Shown here one piece after another: positions 47,408-64,000 of a DNA stretch of 64,000 nt. The translations under genes were made by a program, and so were the position numbers. The notes below the pieces were generated by a model. That model ran no database searches, had not been told where the DNA came from, and worked only from the letters and a program-made list of their open reading frames with translations. Source of the DNA: an uncultured Bacteroidales bacterium. Lineage in GTDB: Bacteria; Bacteroidota; Bacteroidia; Bacteroidales; Muribaculaceae. Position 1 is the stretch's first letter. Every line of letters starts with the position of its first letter. The DNA is taken from positions 1 to 64,000 of the forward strand of contig CACYCT010000174.1 in assembly GCA_902772965.1 (NCBI GenBank), in the 5' to 3' direction.

Positions 47408-50400
47408 TTATGGTTTGAGTTGTTCGAGCAGTCGATTGATGGCGTCCTCGACGGTTCCGGTTCCGGGTCGGACGCTGTATCCGACCTGTCTAGCGGGCAG
47501 GTCAAGTCCGTTCTCGAACCGTTTGAGCAGCGCCGCGGGAATGACTTCGCAGGTGATGAGTTGGTTGAAGTCGGCGTTAAACAGGGTGGCGCCGCGTGAG
47601 TTGATGGTGTTGTCTTCGAGTGTGGTTACGCGTTGCGCCCGGAAGACGGTGTTGTTTTGTCCGTCTTTGAGAATCAGGAGTATGGCGTCGTCCTTGTGCA
47701 CGGGGCAGACGAACACGGGGCGTTGTCCGGCGCCGTAGTTGTAGAAACTTTTGTCGTTTTTCTCGGTGATTTCGTGCAAGGGCACCCGCAGTGCGGTCAG
47801 TTGCGGCCGTGAGCCGTTTTTCCCGAGGTATACCATTGCGAGGAATCCGTCGGCTTCGTGCTCGTGAATGGCGAGGGTGAGTTCGCTGGAGTATTCCTCA
47901 TGGATGTCGTTGCGTGTGTAGAAGTACTTGTTTTCGGGCCGGAAGTAGATGTATCCCACGATGTCGGGGATGTATTCGGGGTCGTATTCGTGAAGGGCGT
48001 TGGGGCGGATCAGGCTTGTGGGAATGTTCTGCAGTTGTTGGGTGGCAGGCGGTGTGGGCACGGGTTCGGGCGCGGGCTCGTCGATGGGGACTTTCTCGTC
48101 GGCGGATTTTTGCTGGTCGAAGAGTTGGCTTCGGTCTTCGCGGTATCTTTCGAGGTCGTCTCCGGTGAGTTCGCGGGTGGAGGTTCCTTGTCGGACGTAG
48201 ACGTGCCCGTCGAGGGTGATCAGGTGGGAGCAGGATTTGATGGAGAGGATGTACACGTCGTGTTTGGCCGTGTCGTCCCATTTTCCGTCGACGAAGTTGT
48301 TTGCCGTCACGCCGAGTTGGTCGTGGATGAGGTTTCTCACGTGCAGGTCGAACTTGTCGCGTGAGCGGAAGAATTTGAGGTCTTCGTCAAGACCGGCTTC
48401 CACGCCGTTGTCACGCACGCCGAAGTAGAGAGTTCCACCGTTCGCGTTGAGCATGCCGCACACGACGCGCAGTATGTTTCGTCCTTGCCGTTCGATGTCG
48501 CGCTGCATTCCGCTGTCGGGCGGGGTGATGATGCTGGTTTTGAACTCGACGTAGAGCGATTCGGAGCCGTAGTATTTGGCCTGTTCCTGGCTGTGGTCGT
48601 TCACCCGGAGCAGTGTCATCAGCCTTGCCTTGATGGCCGAGCGTTGCTCTTTGACGGCGTCTTGTCCGAGCAGGTTGATGGAAAGCACCATTTTTGCCAT
48701 CAGTGCCTCGGTGGAACTCTCGTTGATGGTCATCTCGTAGAGTTGCTCGTTTGCCACGGGGAAGTCGAGGCTTCCCACGATGTAGAGCATGTTGTAGAGG
48801 CGTTTCAGGGTTGGTGTGTTTTCGACCGATTGCGCGTATTGCTGCAGTTTTTCGAGATTGATCCGGTCGTTCTGGTCGTATCCGGCGAGAATGTCGAGCA
48901 GGTCAAGGTGCCGGTTGATGATGTCGACTTGCTCATCGTCGTTGATGATCCGGGCAAGTGTGCGGGCCATGAACAGGAAATTGAACGAGCCCACGTAGTC
49001 GTCGGGCAGGAATTGCGCCGCGCGGCGCACCACGAGCACGAGTTCGCGCATCATTTCGGCGGGCAGTTCGTCGTAGACTTCGGGGGTGGCTTGCCCTTCG
49101 TTGTCGGTGTACTGTTTCTGTCCGAAGTTCTGCATCAGGTTTCTGAACGGGTCGTGGTGCTGGAAGGTCTCGAGGTCGTCGGCGAGTCGTGTGATTTCGC
49201 CGTAGATACTGTTGCCGCTGTTGATGTTGTTTATTTTCACGTGCACGAAGGAGCGGTTGGAGATTGTGCCGGCGATTCCGTCGGCGGTGGCCCAGATGGA
49301 GTAGCCTTCGCGTGTGAGGATGGTGTATTGTCCCCGCTCGTTGCGTGCCGCCACCACGCCGACAAACTCGTCGCCGACGTGGACGTTCTCGTAAATGAAG
49401 TCGCCCACGTGCTGCGCCATCCGCATTTGCGGGTCGCCTTGCCGGTTGTGGGTGGTTACGGTGGCCGGGTAAATGAGATGTTGTCCGGTTTCGTTGTCTT
49501 TGAAGTAGTTCAGGTCGGGGTCGTCTTTGAACCACTGCACGATGTCTCTGACGTGGAGCCATCCCTCACCGGTGAATTCATCGTCTACGATGGTGCAGTG
49601 CAGCACGCTTAGGTTGTTGCTGTCGGTTCCGTCGATGATCACGTGTACGTTGTCACCGATGTCGGCTTGCATTTTCCGTCCGATGGTGGTTGTTTTCTCG
49701 GCATGTTGCCCGAATAGGGCGTCGTCGATTTCTTCCCACATGCGTCGGAGGTAGGTTGTGTTTCTCATCCGCTTGTGGTTGGGTGTGTTGACGGATTCGA
49801 GCAGGTTGACCTGCATGTTGTGCCACGGCAGGATTCCCCCGGGCAAGACGGGGCTGGCCATTTGAGAGGCGTTGAGCGGCTCAACGGCGATGCCGTCGGG
49901 CTTGATGACGAGTTGCACTTTCTGTCCGGAGAACCGTAACGGTGTGAAAGTGGTCGGCAGCGTGGGTAGGTCGGTACTGAGTTTGTGTCCGAGCAGTGTG
50001 ACCTGTCCGGTTTCCTCCCATTTGTATTCAAGGGTGCTCTGCTTGAACATGCACAGCGCTGCGAACGCTTTCTCGAGCAGGTTCGCGCGGTTGACACCGG
50101 GTTGCAGGGTGAGGTACCGGTAGAGCAGGGCGAGATTCCGGTTTCTCACGGCGTCGTCGCGGTTGTCGGTGAGCATGAGTTGGATGGTGAGCGCCTGCAC
50201 GATTTTGGTGTAACTGTCGTTGTCGTCTTTGTTGTCCAGCGCCGAGAGTTCGTCAACACGTTCGCGTGTGTCTTCGATGAACATCTGCAGTGTTTCGACA
50301 AACGCGCCGCGGAAGGGCTCGTTCATCCAGTTGCCTCGGTCGGAGCCGTGAATGACGTCGAAGATGTTACCCATCTTTTGGTTCACCAGTTGGGGCAGAA

Positions 50401-51076
50401 TCTTGAAGATGGTCATCATCACCTGGAATTGTTTGTGCGGGTGGTAGAGGTATCCCGATTTCTGCATGTTGTCGAGCAGGGTGTCGATGTACTGCTCGTG
50501 CTGGTCCGACTCCACCAGTTCGAGCGCTCTGATGAAGTGGTTGGCGTTCTCGGCGCGTGTCGAGAGCCAGTCTTGCAGGGCAGTCCGCTCTTGTGCGGTG
50601 AAACATTGCCGGAGGAATCCCGAGCCTTCGAGCAGGTAGAGGCAAATACGGCGGTAGATTCCCAGCATGGCAATCATGCGGTTGATGCTCCGGTTGAGTT
50701 GTACAACGATGGCTCGCCGCTGATTTTGTAGGGTGAGTGCCTTGTTTACCTCGATTTTCCTGTCAAGCGCCTCGATTTGGTCGCGCCGGTCTTGAATGTT
50801 CTGCTCAATAATCCAGGGTGTGATGTGCCGTTCGGTGGAAGAGAGCGCCGTGATTACCCATCTGGGGTCGTTTTCCTGAAACCTGAGGCGTGCCACGGTG
50901 TAGGCGTCAAGGTTGTCGAACATTCGCCGTATAAACTCGATGTAGACTTGGCTTTGCGGTTCCACGGAGGCCGAGACGGCGTTGATGATTTTCTTGAACG
51001 ACCACAACGGCAGTGAGCGTTGCCGGATGTGCGTTCCGCCAATGTGGTTGGCTTGGGTTGTGTTCATGTCTGGCAT
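47408..51076 (-). CDS. Large AlbA_2/Schlafen-like nucleic-acid-associated protein, about 1222 aa
   Basis: Residues ~840-985 match the AlbA_2 (SLFN-like) domain: SLYVEFKTSII, then RVVCGMLNANGGTLYFGVRD and DGHVYVRQGTSTRELTGDDL. The large N-terminal part (~1-835) is mostly helical with beta inserts near 480-620 that look like OB/S1 folds (GEGWLHVRDIVQWF, GDEFVGVVAARNERGQYTIL). A proline-rich linker follows the AlbA_2 domain, then a ~200-aa beta C-terminus. The family is known to bind nucleic acid. A -7 box at 51111-51118 would place transcription near 51104, so the first ATG (51103) would be leaderless. I chose the ATG at 51076; another is at 51067. Function unknown. Confidence 0.75.
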   Translation of the reverse strand: MPDMNTTQANHIGGTHIRQRSLPLWSFKKIINAVSASVEPQSQVYIEFIRRMFDNLDAYTVARLRFQENDPRWVITALSSTERHITPWIIEQNIQDRRDQIEALDRKIEVNKALTLQNQRRAIVVQLNRSINRMIAMLGIYRRICLYLLEGSGFLRQCFTAQERTALQDWLSTRAENANHFIRALELVESDQHEQYIDTLLDNMQKSGYLYHPHKQFQVMMTIFKILPQLVNQKMGNIFDVIHGSDRGNWMNEPFRGAFVETLQMFIEDTRERVDELSALDNKDDNDSYTKIVQALTIQLMLTDNRDDAVRNRNLALLYRYLTLQPGVNRANLLEKAFAALCMFKQSTLEYKWEETGQVTLLGHKLSTDLPTLPTTFTPLRFSGQKVQLVIKPDGIAVEPLNASQMASPVLPGGILPWHNMQVNLLESVNTPNHKRMRNTTYLRRMWEEIDDALFGQHAEKTTTIGRKMQADIGDNVHVIIDGTDSNNLSVLHCTIVDDEFTGEGWLHVRDIVQWFKDDPDLNYFKDNETGQHLIYPATVTTHNRQGDPQMRMAQHVGDFIYENVHVGDEFVGVVAARNERGQYTILTREGYSIWATADGIAGTISNRSFVHVKINNINSGNSIYGEITRLADDLETFQHHDPFRNLMQNFGQKQYTDNEGQATPEVYDELPAEMMRELVLVVRRAAQFLPDDYVGSFNFLFMARTLARIINDDEQVDIINRHLDLLDILAGYDQNDRINLEKLQQYAQSVENTPTLKRLYNMLYIVGSLDFPVANEQLYEMTINESSTEALMAKMVLSINLLGQDAVKEQRSAIKARLMTLLRVNDHSQEQAKYYGSESLYVEFKTSIITPPDSGMQRDIERQGRNILRVVCGMLNANGGTLYFGVRDNGVEAGLDEDLKFFRSRDKFDLHVRNLIHDQLGVTANNFVDGKWDDTAKHDVYILSIKSCSHLITLDGHVYVRQGTSTRELTGDDLERYREDRSQLFDQQKSADEKVPIDEPAPEPVPTPPATQQLQNIPTSLIRPNALHEYDPEYIPDIVGYIYFRPENKYFYTRNDIHEEYSSELTLAIHEHEADGFLAMVYLGKNGSRPQLTALRVPLHEITEKNDKSFYNYGAGQRPVFVCPVHKDDAILLILKDGQNNTVFRAQRVTTLEDNTINSRGATLFNADFNQLITCEVIPAALLKRFENGLDLPARQVGYSVRPGTGTVEDAINRLLEQLKP

Positions 51077-51110
51077 AATAAATCTTTTTTTGGGTTGATG
51101 CAATAGCAGG

Positions 51111-60781: not shown

Positions 60782-60916
60782 ATGGACGATAACCCCTCAT
60801 ACAATGGCCTAAGACGAAGAACAGTTTTGCGCACATCACGCAAGCAAACTGAAAACAATCAAATAACCACTCAAAGACCTCCTTCTACAACTCCATCTCC
60901 AAGAGGTCACGCCTAA
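60782..60916 (+). CDS. 44-aa small basic disordered protein upstream of the E2-E1 gene
   Basis: An ATG at 60782 opens 44 codons to a TAA at 60914-60916, 12 nt ahead of the E2-E1 start. The product begins MDDNPSYNGLRRRTVLRTSR and ends TQRPPSTTPSPRGHA: it is rich in Arg, Thr, Pro and Asn, with no predicted fold. Its place between the promoter and the E2-E1 gene suggests translation with it. It has no recognised homologue. A short peptide ending in RG-HA could be a conjugated tag or a leader peptide; both are speculation. Confidence 0.5.
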   Translation: MDDNPSYNGLRRRTVLRTSRKQTENNQITTQRPPSTTPSPRGHA

Positions 60917-60928
60917 ATCTTTTGCCAT

Positions 60929-63334
60929 ATGTTTGAATACAGAGAAGCTGATTTCTTCACTTCGTACTTCAAAAATCATCCTGATTTCAATGTGATTGAG
61001 GAGTTCAAGGTATCAGAAGAGGAGGATGAGAAGAATCTCTTTGTGGGTTATGTTGAGGTTCTTAACTCCATCCACCCACTTCAATTAAGAGTTGAAATTC
61101 CCAAAGCTTTTCCTCATCAAAAACTGACATTCCGCACCAAGTCGCTGAGCGGATACCCCCACTTGATTCATACCGGTAAGATCAAACATGGAGATTGGTT
61201 TTGCCTGAATACACCATTTGCGGAAACAGCAGAAGAACAACTTAACCAAGAAGTGGCTCGACTAAAACAATGGTTAGACCGTTGCCGGCAGATTTTGGAG
61301 AATTATCCTCCCATAATAGAAGATGTCAATGTGATAGAAGCACTTCGTCGCCAATACGTTTATGAATGGGAGAATGTTGATGAAGTCAATGAGTTTACTG
61401 CTAATGCCTTGCTGACTTTTATCGGAGATTTCGCGAATGACCTTGATTTTTTCAAGGAAAATATGGGCTACCTGCATTGCGTAAAAACTCCGGACGATAG
61501 ATTCTATGCGCTTCAGAATAACGACTTAACCAATTTTAAACTGCCTTACATTATTGTGGATGAACCCCCAAAATCAATCGAGGTTTTGAAAGATTTTGTG
61601 GCTCTAAGAGACCAATACAACTGGGATGAGAAAATCTGTGAGCATTTGTTGCCTGATTTTAATTTGACAAATAAATGGACAACAGACAGTACATATGATG
61701 ATATTAGTTTGCTAAATTGTCCATTGGAAGAGGCTTTGGATATAATAAATAGAATGAGGGCAGAACTCCATAAAGAGGAGTCTTACCTGCCTGTATCTGA
61801 TGGAGATACCCCTTCTGCTCAAACGCCAAAGAAAGTTCTTCCTCAACAAAAGGAAGTTCTCCTAAAAGAACTTCAAAATTTGGAGGAAAAAGTTCGAAAA
61901 AATGGAGGGTATAAAATTACAATAATGGTGCCTTCATGTGACAAGAAACCCGAGGAAATGACTCCTGAAGAGTTAACGGAGTTTTATACGGATCCAGATG
62001 ATTTAATGGATGCTTATTTGTACACATATCACCACTTTGCATTAGGAATTAAACATAATAGTGGTATTTCATGGTTTGTTTTACTTACTTTCCGTGCCTG
62101 TCGTGAAGGCACAAAAGCGTCTTTTAACATCCGTTTTTATACCATCCACCTCAGCAAACTTGTTTCTCATCCATTAGCCTACTTGTATGCACAACATGTT
62201 GATGAAAGATTGTTTTTTGGACGCGGAATGTTTTCAAATCGGTTTATAGATAAGAAAATAGCTTTGGTCGGCGTTGGAGCGATAGGTTCCATGGTCGCTG
62301 AATCTCTCGCGAGAAGTGGAGTGACTGTCATAGGCCTTTGGGATAACGATACCATCGAGCCGGGGAATATCTGCAGAAGTACTTACACTTTATCAGACTT
62401 GGGAAGCAGGAAAGTTCATGCCTTAAAAAAGAAGATTCTCTCAATCAATCCGTTTATTAAAACAAAGGAGATAATAGCTGAAGGCTCTTTTTACGACAAT
62501 ATTAACTACGAAAACCAAGAGGAAAGCCTGAAGAAGATTCAAGAATATGATATGATTATCGATTGCACCGGAAGCAATGAGATGTTACATTTCTTGAGTT
62601 ACGCTGTGCCCGACAAGGAGATTATCAGTTTGTGCATCACCAACCGCGCCAAAGAGTTGTTGTGTGTCACCAACAAACAATTCAATCTGTTTGAACTTCG
62701 CAAGGCATATTTGTCACGAATAGAACAAGACACCAAGAACTTCTATCTGGAAGGAAGCGGATGCTACTCACCAACATTCCTTGCCACCAACAGTGACATC
62801 GCTTCGCTTGTGAACCTTGTCCTCCGCGAGATGAATGCGGCTATCGGAAACAATGACAAGATGGGGTCGATGGTGTTATCACACGGCCGCAGAGGCATCC
62901 TGATTGATCGCATTGAAAGTTTCAAACTTGAAGGGTACGACATCAAGATGGCAATCCCGAATGAAACACTATTGGATGCAGAAGAAATGAGCGATGTTCC
63001 CGATGGGGCAATCGGTTATTTTCTGGGCTGCTATAGCAAAGATGGGCTTCAAATTTTGGTCACCCATGCAGTTGAAGCACCGAATGCGGAAAAATTGCTG
63101 AACGATGCCTATGGTACATCAAAAGGCATTATTGACTATATCGGCGATTTTGTGTATTCTGGCGAACAGGCCGGATCGTATAGCAACGAAGCACTTGAAC
63201 TCCTTGCCTCCAAAGCCGAAGACGAGACAATCAACACAAACAATCCACTATTGGCAACAAGAAATCCCGACGGGTCGGTATCTTTCTTCCTTTACATCAA
63301 CAACGGATTGGTACCTTTTGTCAAAGAGGATTAA
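60929..63334 (+). CDS. E2-E1 fusion protein with a degenerate JAB/MPN-like C-terminus, 801 aa
   Basis: Residues ~1-130 resemble prokaryotic E2-like (UBC-fold) domains: LQLRVEIPKAFPHQKLTFRT, then YPHLIHTGKIKHGDWFCL with the putative catalytic Cys92. Residues ~131-430 are a helical linker. Residues ~438-635 are a ThiF/E1 adenylation domain: LVGVGAIGSMVAESL (Gly448/450/453), LWDNDTIEPGNICRS (Asp474, Asn480, Arg483), Lys495 and DCTGS (545-549). Cys612 (EGSGCYSPT) is a candidate E1 thioester Cys. Residues ~670-801 look like a JAB/MPN domain whose motifs have lost the metal ligands: GAIGYFLG (694-700) and IDYIGDFVYSGE (735-746), where active enzymes have HxH. AT-rich, with its own promoter. E2-E1 fusions are known as Cap2 in CBASS, but no CD-NTase is adjacent. 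Confidence 0.8.
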   Translation: MFEYREADFFTSYFKNHPDFNVIEEFKVSEEEDEKNLFVGYVEVLNSIHPLQLRVEIPKAFPHQKLTFRTKSLSGYPHLIHTGKIKHGDWFCLNTPFAETAEEQLNQEVARLKQWLDRCRQILENYPPIIEDVNVIEALRRQYVYEWENVDEVNEFTANALLTFIGDFANDLDFFKENMGYLHCVKTPDDRFYALQNNDLTNFKLPYIIVDEPPKSIEVLKDFVALRDQYNWDEKICEHLLPDFNLTNKWTTDSTYDDISLLNCPLEEALDIINRMRAELHKEESYLPVSDGDTPSAQTPKKVLPQQKEVLLKELQNLEEKVRKNGGYKITIMVPSCDKKPEEMTPEELTEFYTDPDDLMDAYLYTYHHFALGIKHNSGISWFVLLTFRACREGTKASFNIRFYTIHLSKLVSHPLAYLYAQHVDERLFFGRGMFSNRFIDKKIALVGVGAIGSMVAESLARSGVTVIGLWDNDTIEPGNICRSTYTLSDLGSRKVHALKKKILSINPFIKTKEIIAEGSFYDNINYENQEESLKKIQEYDMIIDCTGSNEMLHFLSYAVPDKEIISLCITNRAKELLCVTNKQFNLFELRKAYLSRIEQDTKNFYLEGSGCYSPTFLATNSDIASLVNLVLREMNAAIGNNDKMGSMVLSHGRRGILIDRIESFKLEGYDIKMAIPNETLLDAEEMSDVPDGAIGYFLGCYSKDGLQILVTHAVEAPNAEKLLNDAYGTSKGIIDYIGDFVYSGEQAGSYSNEALELLASKAEDETINTNNPLLATRNPDGSVSFFLYINNGLVPFVKED

Positions 63335-64000
63335 CGTCTACGTTTTCTTCCACAGTTTCTGCGAGTGCCACTCCCATGGCATTCGCAGTATTTCTTCCCA
63401 CTGCCGCAAGGACATGGGGCATCATCTGCTATTGATATAGGATGTTCCGGCGATTCCGGTAGGTTATCTCCAATATCAGACTTATCAGTTTTTTCCTCTT
63501 CAGTACCTTCTGAAAATGGAATAACAGCATTCATTAGACGGCTAATGATAATCGAGTTAATCTCTGACATCATCTTGTCGTATCGGTCTTTCAAGAGATT
63601 CACCTCATGTTTATCAAGATTCCCCATCATATATTCCACAAAACGCTTCCATAATTTATCATAAACCTGCAAAGTGATTTGCCGCTTAAATTCATGGCAG
63701 AAGTAGTTAAATCCTTTGTTACTCACCATCTTCTGAGCATTCAAGCCGATAGCAAACGGATGCCGTGAATCAGAAAAAGACACCCACAAAAATCCAAGAT
63801 TGATATTATTCCTCAGACTGCGATTCACCAGTTCTCTTGTTCTCAAATATAACTCTTTCAAATGCTTCTCTACGCTTATTTTTGACACCTCAAACCGGCA
63901 TATTAAACTATCTATCAAATCTTCTGAAGCAGATGCTTCATGCAGTAACTTGTTACGTTGCGTATAGAATGTCAAACGATGCGGGGCAATTATATCATCT
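63331..64000 (-). CDS. SEC-C-motif protein, partial (5' end beyond right edge)
   Basis: The frame is open to the window edge, so the gene continues at higher coordinates; the visible part is about 223 codons. The body is helical and charged (RFEVSKISVEKHLKELYLRT, LNAQKMVSNKGFNYFCHEFK). The end carries a metal-binding SEC-C motif (DAPCPCGSGKKYCECHG) and an Arg-rich tail. SEC-C modules bind zinc and often tether proteins to ribosomes or SecB. The stop overlaps that of the E2-E1 gene by two bases on the opposite strand. It is equally AT-rich, so it may belong to the same acquired segment. Family beyond SEC-C not recognised. Confidence 0.7.
   Translation of the reverse strand, partial: DDIIAPHRLTFYTQRNKLLHEASASEDLIDSLICRFEVSKISVEKHLKELYLRTRELVNRSLRNNINLGFLWVSFSDSRHPFAIGLNAQKMVSNKGFNYFCHEFKRQITLQVYDKLWKRFVEYMMGNLDKHEVNLLKDRYDKMMSEINSIIISRLMNAVIPFSEGTEEEKTDKSDIGDNLPESPEHPISIADDAPCPCGSGKKYCECHGSGTRRNCGRKRRR

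Follow-up and report, generated by a model that had tools for sequence, protein, structure and literature searches.

A Cap2-type E2–E1 fusion with a ligand-free JAB-like domain, a candidate peptide substrate and SecA-like and PLD neighbours in Bacteroidales

Known bacterial E2–E1 enzymes attach a whole signalling enzyme, the CD-NTase, to their targets. The 64,000-nucleotide stretch of DNA from an uncultured gut Bacteroidales bacterium analysed here (hereafter the window) encodes an E2–E1 fusion with no CD-NTase gene beside it, which raises the question of what this enzyme conjugates, and with which partners. We read the locus as a mobile Cap2-type conjugation module in which the substrate would be a stand-alone peptide encoded directly upstream, the fused JAB-like domain is a ligand-free pseudo-JAB, and a SecA-like ATPase and a PLD-domain protein would act as partners, probably in defence; the probability of this reading is in our judgement roughly 0.55. 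The features are collected in Table 1.

Table 1. Features of the module, with window coordinates unless stated otherwise.
Feature	Coordinates	Strand	Basis or remark
Acquired low-GC segment	60380..64000	.	about 41% GC vs 57 +/- 2.2% in 1-60379
44-aa peptide ORF, MDDNPSYNGLRRRTVLRTSRKQTENNQITTQRPPSTTPSPRGHA-stop, candidate modifier/substrate of the E2–E1 enzyme	60782..60916	+	conserved position, coding selection
E2–E1–pseudo-JAB fusion protein	60929..63334	+	ATG start, 801 aa, frame intact
E2-like domain, residues 1-130	60929..61318	+	hhalign vs Cap2 E2 domains 97.0%, E 1.1e-10
Cys92 codon, predicted E2 active-site cysteine	61202..61204	+	aligned with Cap2 E2 Cys
Linker, residues 131-425	61319..62203	+	fast-evolving; profile unrelated to Cap2 linker
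ThiF/E1 adenylation domain, residues 426-640	62204..62848	+	ThiF match, Cap2 alignment
Cys612 codon, predicted E1 thioester cysteine (GCYSPTF)	62762..62764	+	aligned with Cap2 position 548
Pseudo-JAB/MPN domain, residues 641-801	62849..63331	+	hhalign, AlphaFold2, PDB fold match
DFVYSG replacing the (E/D)WHxHP metal-ligand motif	63146..63163	+	alignment
SecA-like ATPase, C-terminal part with SEC-C motif	63331..64000	-	whole gene contig C174 63331-65976, 881 aa
PLD-domain protein, upstream of the SecA-like gene	65969-66718, outside the window	-	cut by contig end

A single-sequence Pfam search of the 801-aa protein recognised ThiF alone (E 1.4e-20) and returned no match for the E2 region or the C-terminal domain, so that profile-profile comparison was needed for both. 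The PADLOC E1-E2 model PDLC00827 (711 positions, spanning Cap2 and JAB) matched residues 419–797 (E 2e-76); because in genome G283 the same model covers the Cap2 gene and, across a stop, a separate downstream Cap3 gene, the match beyond the E1 domain was an early hint of a JAB domain. The NCBIfam 6A-MBL cap2_3 model NF058523 matched residues 440–718 (E 6e-28) with 97.7 bits, far under its cut-off of 320. The nearest solved structures are those of Cap2, and BubCD matches the E1 domain weakly. An AlphaFold2 model of the full-length protein, run with the three homologues, was unusable (pLDDT 34.5). A scan of genome contigs that used this protein alone returned no relative, and repeating the scan with a two-row alignment recovered a relative in Phocaeicola barnesiae. 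The three full-length homologues, from the window, G766 (L062) and P. barnesiae (L061), share 53–55% protein identity overall. Close relatives of the E2–E1 enzyme and of the SecA-like protein were both absent from the viral contigs searched, which weakens the case for a phage-borne origin.

The enzyme is composed of an N-terminal E2 domain with its cysteine, followed by a ThiF/E1 domain with its thioester cysteine, the arrangement that defines the Cap2 type. Cys92 sits in the sequence GDWFCLN, and Cys612 is invariant among nine relatives; the aligned active-site position 548 in Enterobacter cloacae Cap2 is Ala in the crystal chain used, which we take to be the C548A mutant. The GVGAIG motif, N480, R483 and K495 show little or no variation over the Cap2 relatives. 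Among the three homologues identity is highest in the E2 domain (70–80%), followed by the E1 domain (65–71%), and falls to 36–42% in the linker; likewise, E2 and E1 are under the strongest constraint, and the core of the C-terminal domain is constrained too (pN/pS about 0.3).

The C-terminal domain is JAB/MPN-like, well above chance. Compared by hhalign with ten Cap3/JAB domains, the three homologues matched over the whole domain at 96.6% (E 6.6e-10), against 0.1–0.2% for the controls (Cap2 E2 domains, PLD, SecA and Cap2 linkers). An AlphaFold2 model of residues 641–801 built from a 19-row alignment (pLDDT 86.6, pTM 0.81) found Cap3 as its top PDB match (9ild_A, E 2.6e-7, TM 0.66/0.69), with further matches to the MPN domains of CSN6, Rpn8, Rpn11 and eIF3; since the folding alignment included JAB sequences, hhalign is the more independent test. 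The MPN fold is thus present without the Glu, HxH and Asp zinc site of JAB/JAMM enzymes: the Glu of E(T/F)GG and both His of (E/D)WHxHP are gone in all three homologues, the Asp ligand position is occupied by Glu, Glu and Asp, and about 14 residues are absent before the lost ligands. Ligand loss in all three proteins at their level of divergence, together with a core under selection, argues that the loss is old and that the domain has been retained, and disfavours recent decay. Such a domain parallels the inactive MPN subunits of eukaryotic complexes, e.g. CSN6 and Rpn8. An earlier, sequence-only reading of this DNA had proposed an E2 domain with Cys92 in GDWFCL, a full ThiF/E1 domain with the residues named above and Cys612 as candidate thioester, and a C-terminal JAB likeness lacking the HxH ligands; all of these stand, and both profile comparison and structure prediction, the checks it had suggested, returned a JAB fold with missing ligands and not an unrelated one. 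Its further proposal of three activities acting in cis needs correcting to two, accompanied by one non-catalytic module.

That reading had left modifier and target open; a conserved peptide encoded directly upstream, which it does not mention, now narrows the choice of modifier. The ORF is separated from the start of the enzyme gene by 12 nt (12–15 nt among loci), and counterparts of 45 aa (G766, contig of L062) and 50 aa (P. barnesiae DSM 18169, L061) occupy the same place; the peptide is known from these three loci. Its C-terminus is identical in all of them (PSPRGHA-stop), and PS(Y/F)NG near the start, LRT and TQRP are conserved as well. Synonymous divergence (pS 0.61–0.78) exceeds nonsynonymous divergence (pN 0.18–0.30; pN/pS about 0.3–0.4), and third positions dominate the codon differences (15/10/26, 15/10/30 and 8/8/23 at positions 1/2/3), a pattern from which we conclude that the ORF is under purifying selection on its coding sequence. 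Comparison of the peptide with PDB, Pfam and plasmids gave no match. Proteins conjugated by Cap2 systems carry a C-terminal Gly or Ala and become linked to lysines (PMC11153139, PMC10097602), and at most E2–E1 loci examined the gene directly upstream encodes a protein with a Gly/Ala-type tail, whether a CD-NTase (KRFG, NQFG, GRFA) or, at two loci, a DUF1508 protein (REQFA, SRFA). Judged by its end and position, the peptide looks like a Cap2-substrate tail set free, with His as the penultimate residue where most of the tails surveyed have Phe. It is a strong candidate for the modifier of the E2–E1 enzyme, and is probably a tag joined to other proteins.

A regulatory leader, either a uORF or a ribosome-arrest peptide controlling translation of the enzyme, would also be short and Pro-rich with a conserved C-terminal end close to the downstream gene, as in the arrest leaders SecM and TnaC; the true substrate would then be another protein, such as the PLD protein, the SecA-like protein or a host protein, in keeping with the larger folded proteins that are the known Cap2 substrates. 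We consider this unlikely, however, since the conserved N-terminal PS(Y/F)NG is hard to account for in an arrest leader, folding of the peptide/E2–E1 junction RNA revealed no conserved structure (z -0.83, -1.13 and +0.23), the Ala end and the position of the peptide match Cap2 substrates, and neither the PLD nor the SecA-like protein carries a tail of that type.

The survey of upstream genes also yielded observations on other systems. At L044 (6746-9298, -) and L045 (6941-9247, -), Cap2-like E2–E1 enzymes lie behind DUF1508 (YegP-like) genes with tails REQFA and ESRFA rather than behind a CD-NTase, and these loci are candidates for another conjugation system, in which YegP itself would be conjugated. 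Two upstream proteins carry residues past the Ala/Gly. In a haloarchaeal CBASS with a fused E2–E1–JAB (WHYHP; L040:4779-8248, +) the CD-NTase ends ...HQFAESDS, four residues past FA, and is possibly a JAB-processed precursor. In a Bacteroidales locus (L070:419-3243, -) an E2–E1–JAB with DWHSHP follows immediately after a PLD gene; the PLD product ends ...PPTSYGK, and the Lys after Gly suggests a precursor trimmed by the JAB.

The SecA-like and PLD genes, neither of them recognised in the sequence-only reading, belong to the module. The divergent SecA-like protein has the domains expected of a SecA family member (DEAD motor, preprotein cross-linking domain and SEC-C), and the PLD protein retains an intact HxK motif. 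An ortholog of the SecA-like protein occurs in exactly 3 of 327 host-family genomes (G000, G766 and G807), and the E2–E1 gene or a fragment of it is present in the same three, the host-family samples for the two proteins being overlapping and not necessarily identical. The order peptide, E2–E1, SecA-like, PLD recurs in L053/L062 and in P. barnesiae (L061); in G807 (L054) the E2–E1 gene runs off the contig edge, and the position of the peptide falls outside the contig. Elsewhere the host genome contains another, partial SecA match, which is 36% identical to the SecA-like protein and is probably the host's own SecA. PLD relatives elsewhere align mainly in the catalytic N-terminal part, and the three loci of such relatives that we inspected contain neither a SecA-like nor an E2–E1 gene. 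Two other leads were set aside: PADLOC "E2" models match SEC-C through a shared zinc motif alone, and of the plasmid SecA matches three on inspection were ordinary SecA in chromosome-like surroundings and one further record was unannotated. In the literature searched, with preprints and most subscription journals outside its coverage, no description of a SecA/PLD/E2–E1 combination was found.

The SecA-like and PLD genes are convergent with, and downstream of, the enzyme gene, and need not share a transcript or pathway with it. Two independent systems, one of enzyme and peptide and one of SecA-like and PLD proteins, could therefore be travelling on the same type of element, and opposite strands with separate expected promoters, as well as the frequent sharing of defence islands by unrelated systems, would fit that reading. 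It is rather improbable, since wherever the SecA-like protein was detected among the sampled family genomes (three of three) the E2–E1 gene was present as well, as it is in P. barnesiae; the pairs stay together while the outer flanks of the module differ between genomes; and in both the window and P. barnesiae the stop codons of the E2–E1 and SecA-like genes share a 4-nt overlap, though in G766, too, the convergent gene ends lie within a few nt of each other.

The GC content of the segment marks the module as acquired. In P. barnesiae the surroundings of the module (L061:269-21004) include tra and relaxase genes, a parA and an integrase, judging from translations, and in G807 (L054:3989-8771, -) a WYL-domain regulator and matches to the PADLOC candidate defence system PDC-M16A/B stand beside the SecA/PLD pair. 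Together, the low GC, the tra/integrase setting and the PDC-M16 neighbour point to mobile, probably defensive cargo; from this context, the module most likely guards against phages or other mobile DNA. Elsewhere in the window (47408-51103, -), a 1231-aa protein contains a Schlafen AlbA_2 domain at residues 848–979 (E 1.7e-13) and has no PADLOC match.

In the conjugation reading that we prefer, the E1 domain would adenylate the C-terminal Ala of the upstream peptide, which would be loaded onto Cys612, handed to Cys92 of the fused E2 and then linked to lysines of target proteins, presumably through an isopeptide bond. The ligand-free JAB would be kept as a non-catalytic domain that binds peptide, target or a second subunit, and with its metal site lost the tagging would not be reversed by the same protein. 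The convergent SecA-like ATPase and PLD protein may form a partner or effector arm, the motor and nuclease-type domains suggesting that material which is tagged or invading is processed. The Cap2 substrates known so far are folded proteins carrying a tail, contacted via their folded part according to a review; recognition of a free peptide would have to work differently. If the peptide is a dedicated substrate, an ancient machinery works with a minimal tag lacking the ubiquitin fold, and the tail-bearing protein is exchangeable (CD-NTase, DUF1508, PLD or bare peptide); this would be a new kind of bacterial protein-tagging system, probably directed against viruses. The presence of the module in the cultured strain P. 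barnesiae DSM 18169 makes it directly testable.

A bolder version, which we regard as quite doubtful, would build the logic of the Pup-proteasome pathway from ubiquitin-type enzymes: the E2–E1 enzyme would tag proteins, perhaps of phage, with the peptide; PS(Y/F)NG would dock them on the SecA-like motor for threading and unfolding; and the PLD protein would supply the nuclease arm, with the tag read by the pseudo-JAB. Such an arrangement would amount to a tag-and-segregase immune system whose modifier lacks the ubiquitin fold. Like the peptide in the proposed system, Pup is a short, probably disordered protein attached via its C-terminus, with an ATPase nearby; PafA is glutamine-synthetase-like and Pup ends in GGE or GGQ, whereas the enzyme here is an E2–E1 and the peptide ends in PRGHA.

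Assignment of the locus to CBASS is not supported. The lack of an adjacent CD-NTase, observed already in the sequence-only reading, extends to the contig end, 2.7 kb beyond the window, with no such gene just past the window edge; SMODS CD-NTases are absent from G000, G807 and P. barnesiae, and G766 has one on another contig. A catalytic Cap3 JAB is missing, and a nucleotide-gated effector (SAVED, CapV etc.) is not found, the neighbours being the SecA-like and PLD genes. Decay of a type II CBASS, with the CD-NTase lost, the peptide a tail remnant and the JAB decaying, would suit the Cap2-like enzyme, the tail-like peptide in the CD-NTase position and the lost ligands, but it is highly improbable and was dropped because three genomes at 53–55% protein identity share peptide, enzyme, gene order and ligand loss, purifying selection acts on both the peptide and the pseudo-JAB, the peptide possesses a start of its own and a conserved N-terminus, and three of the four genomes lack a SMODS CD-NTase.

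Among known systems, type II CBASS (PMC10097602, PMC11153139) shares with the module the E2-then-E1 order, both cysteines, the adenylation residues, a JAB fold nearest to Cap3 and a substrate-like gene immediately upstream; it differs in that here a 44–50-aa peptide replaces the CD-NTase, the JAB is fused and ligand-free, the linker is unrelated and the partners are SecA-like and PLD proteins. Bub/Bil ubiquitin-like pathways likewise use a bacterial E1/E2/JAB cascade, whereas here no beta-grasp modifier gene was found and the peptide stands alone upstream. The "6a" operons with metallo-beta-lactamase genes (PMC1779556) have a single-chain E2–E1–JAB, which the protein here matches by fold and order; the JAB ligands are lost here, and no metallo-beta-lactamase gene lies among the immediate neighbours in the window, L053, L054 or L061.

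In a tree of 14 E2–E1 proteins, the three homologues form a single clade (100/100), set on a long branch, and the surrounding group contains Bacteroidota CBASS Cap2 and the Bacteroidales E2–E1–JAB of G1050 (L070). The latter is the nearest non-ortholog by tree path and has a PLD partner and a fused JAB; there, in contrast, the JAB ligands are kept, the PLD gene itself lies directly upstream, and no SecA-like gene or peptide was seen on the contig. Frames of 771, 784 and 389 codons with a JAB motif on the viral contigs L117, L123 and L130, the last maybe partial, are possibly further E2–E1–JAB triple modules. The fusion proposed in the sequence-only reading is present, but is not new: it was described in 2006 as a "triple module" (Iyer et al. 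2006, PMC1779556), and active types occur in haloarchaeal CBASS and in the Bacteroidales locus with the PLD gene. Relative to these known fusions, the unusual feature of the enzyme described here is the loss of the JAB ligands.
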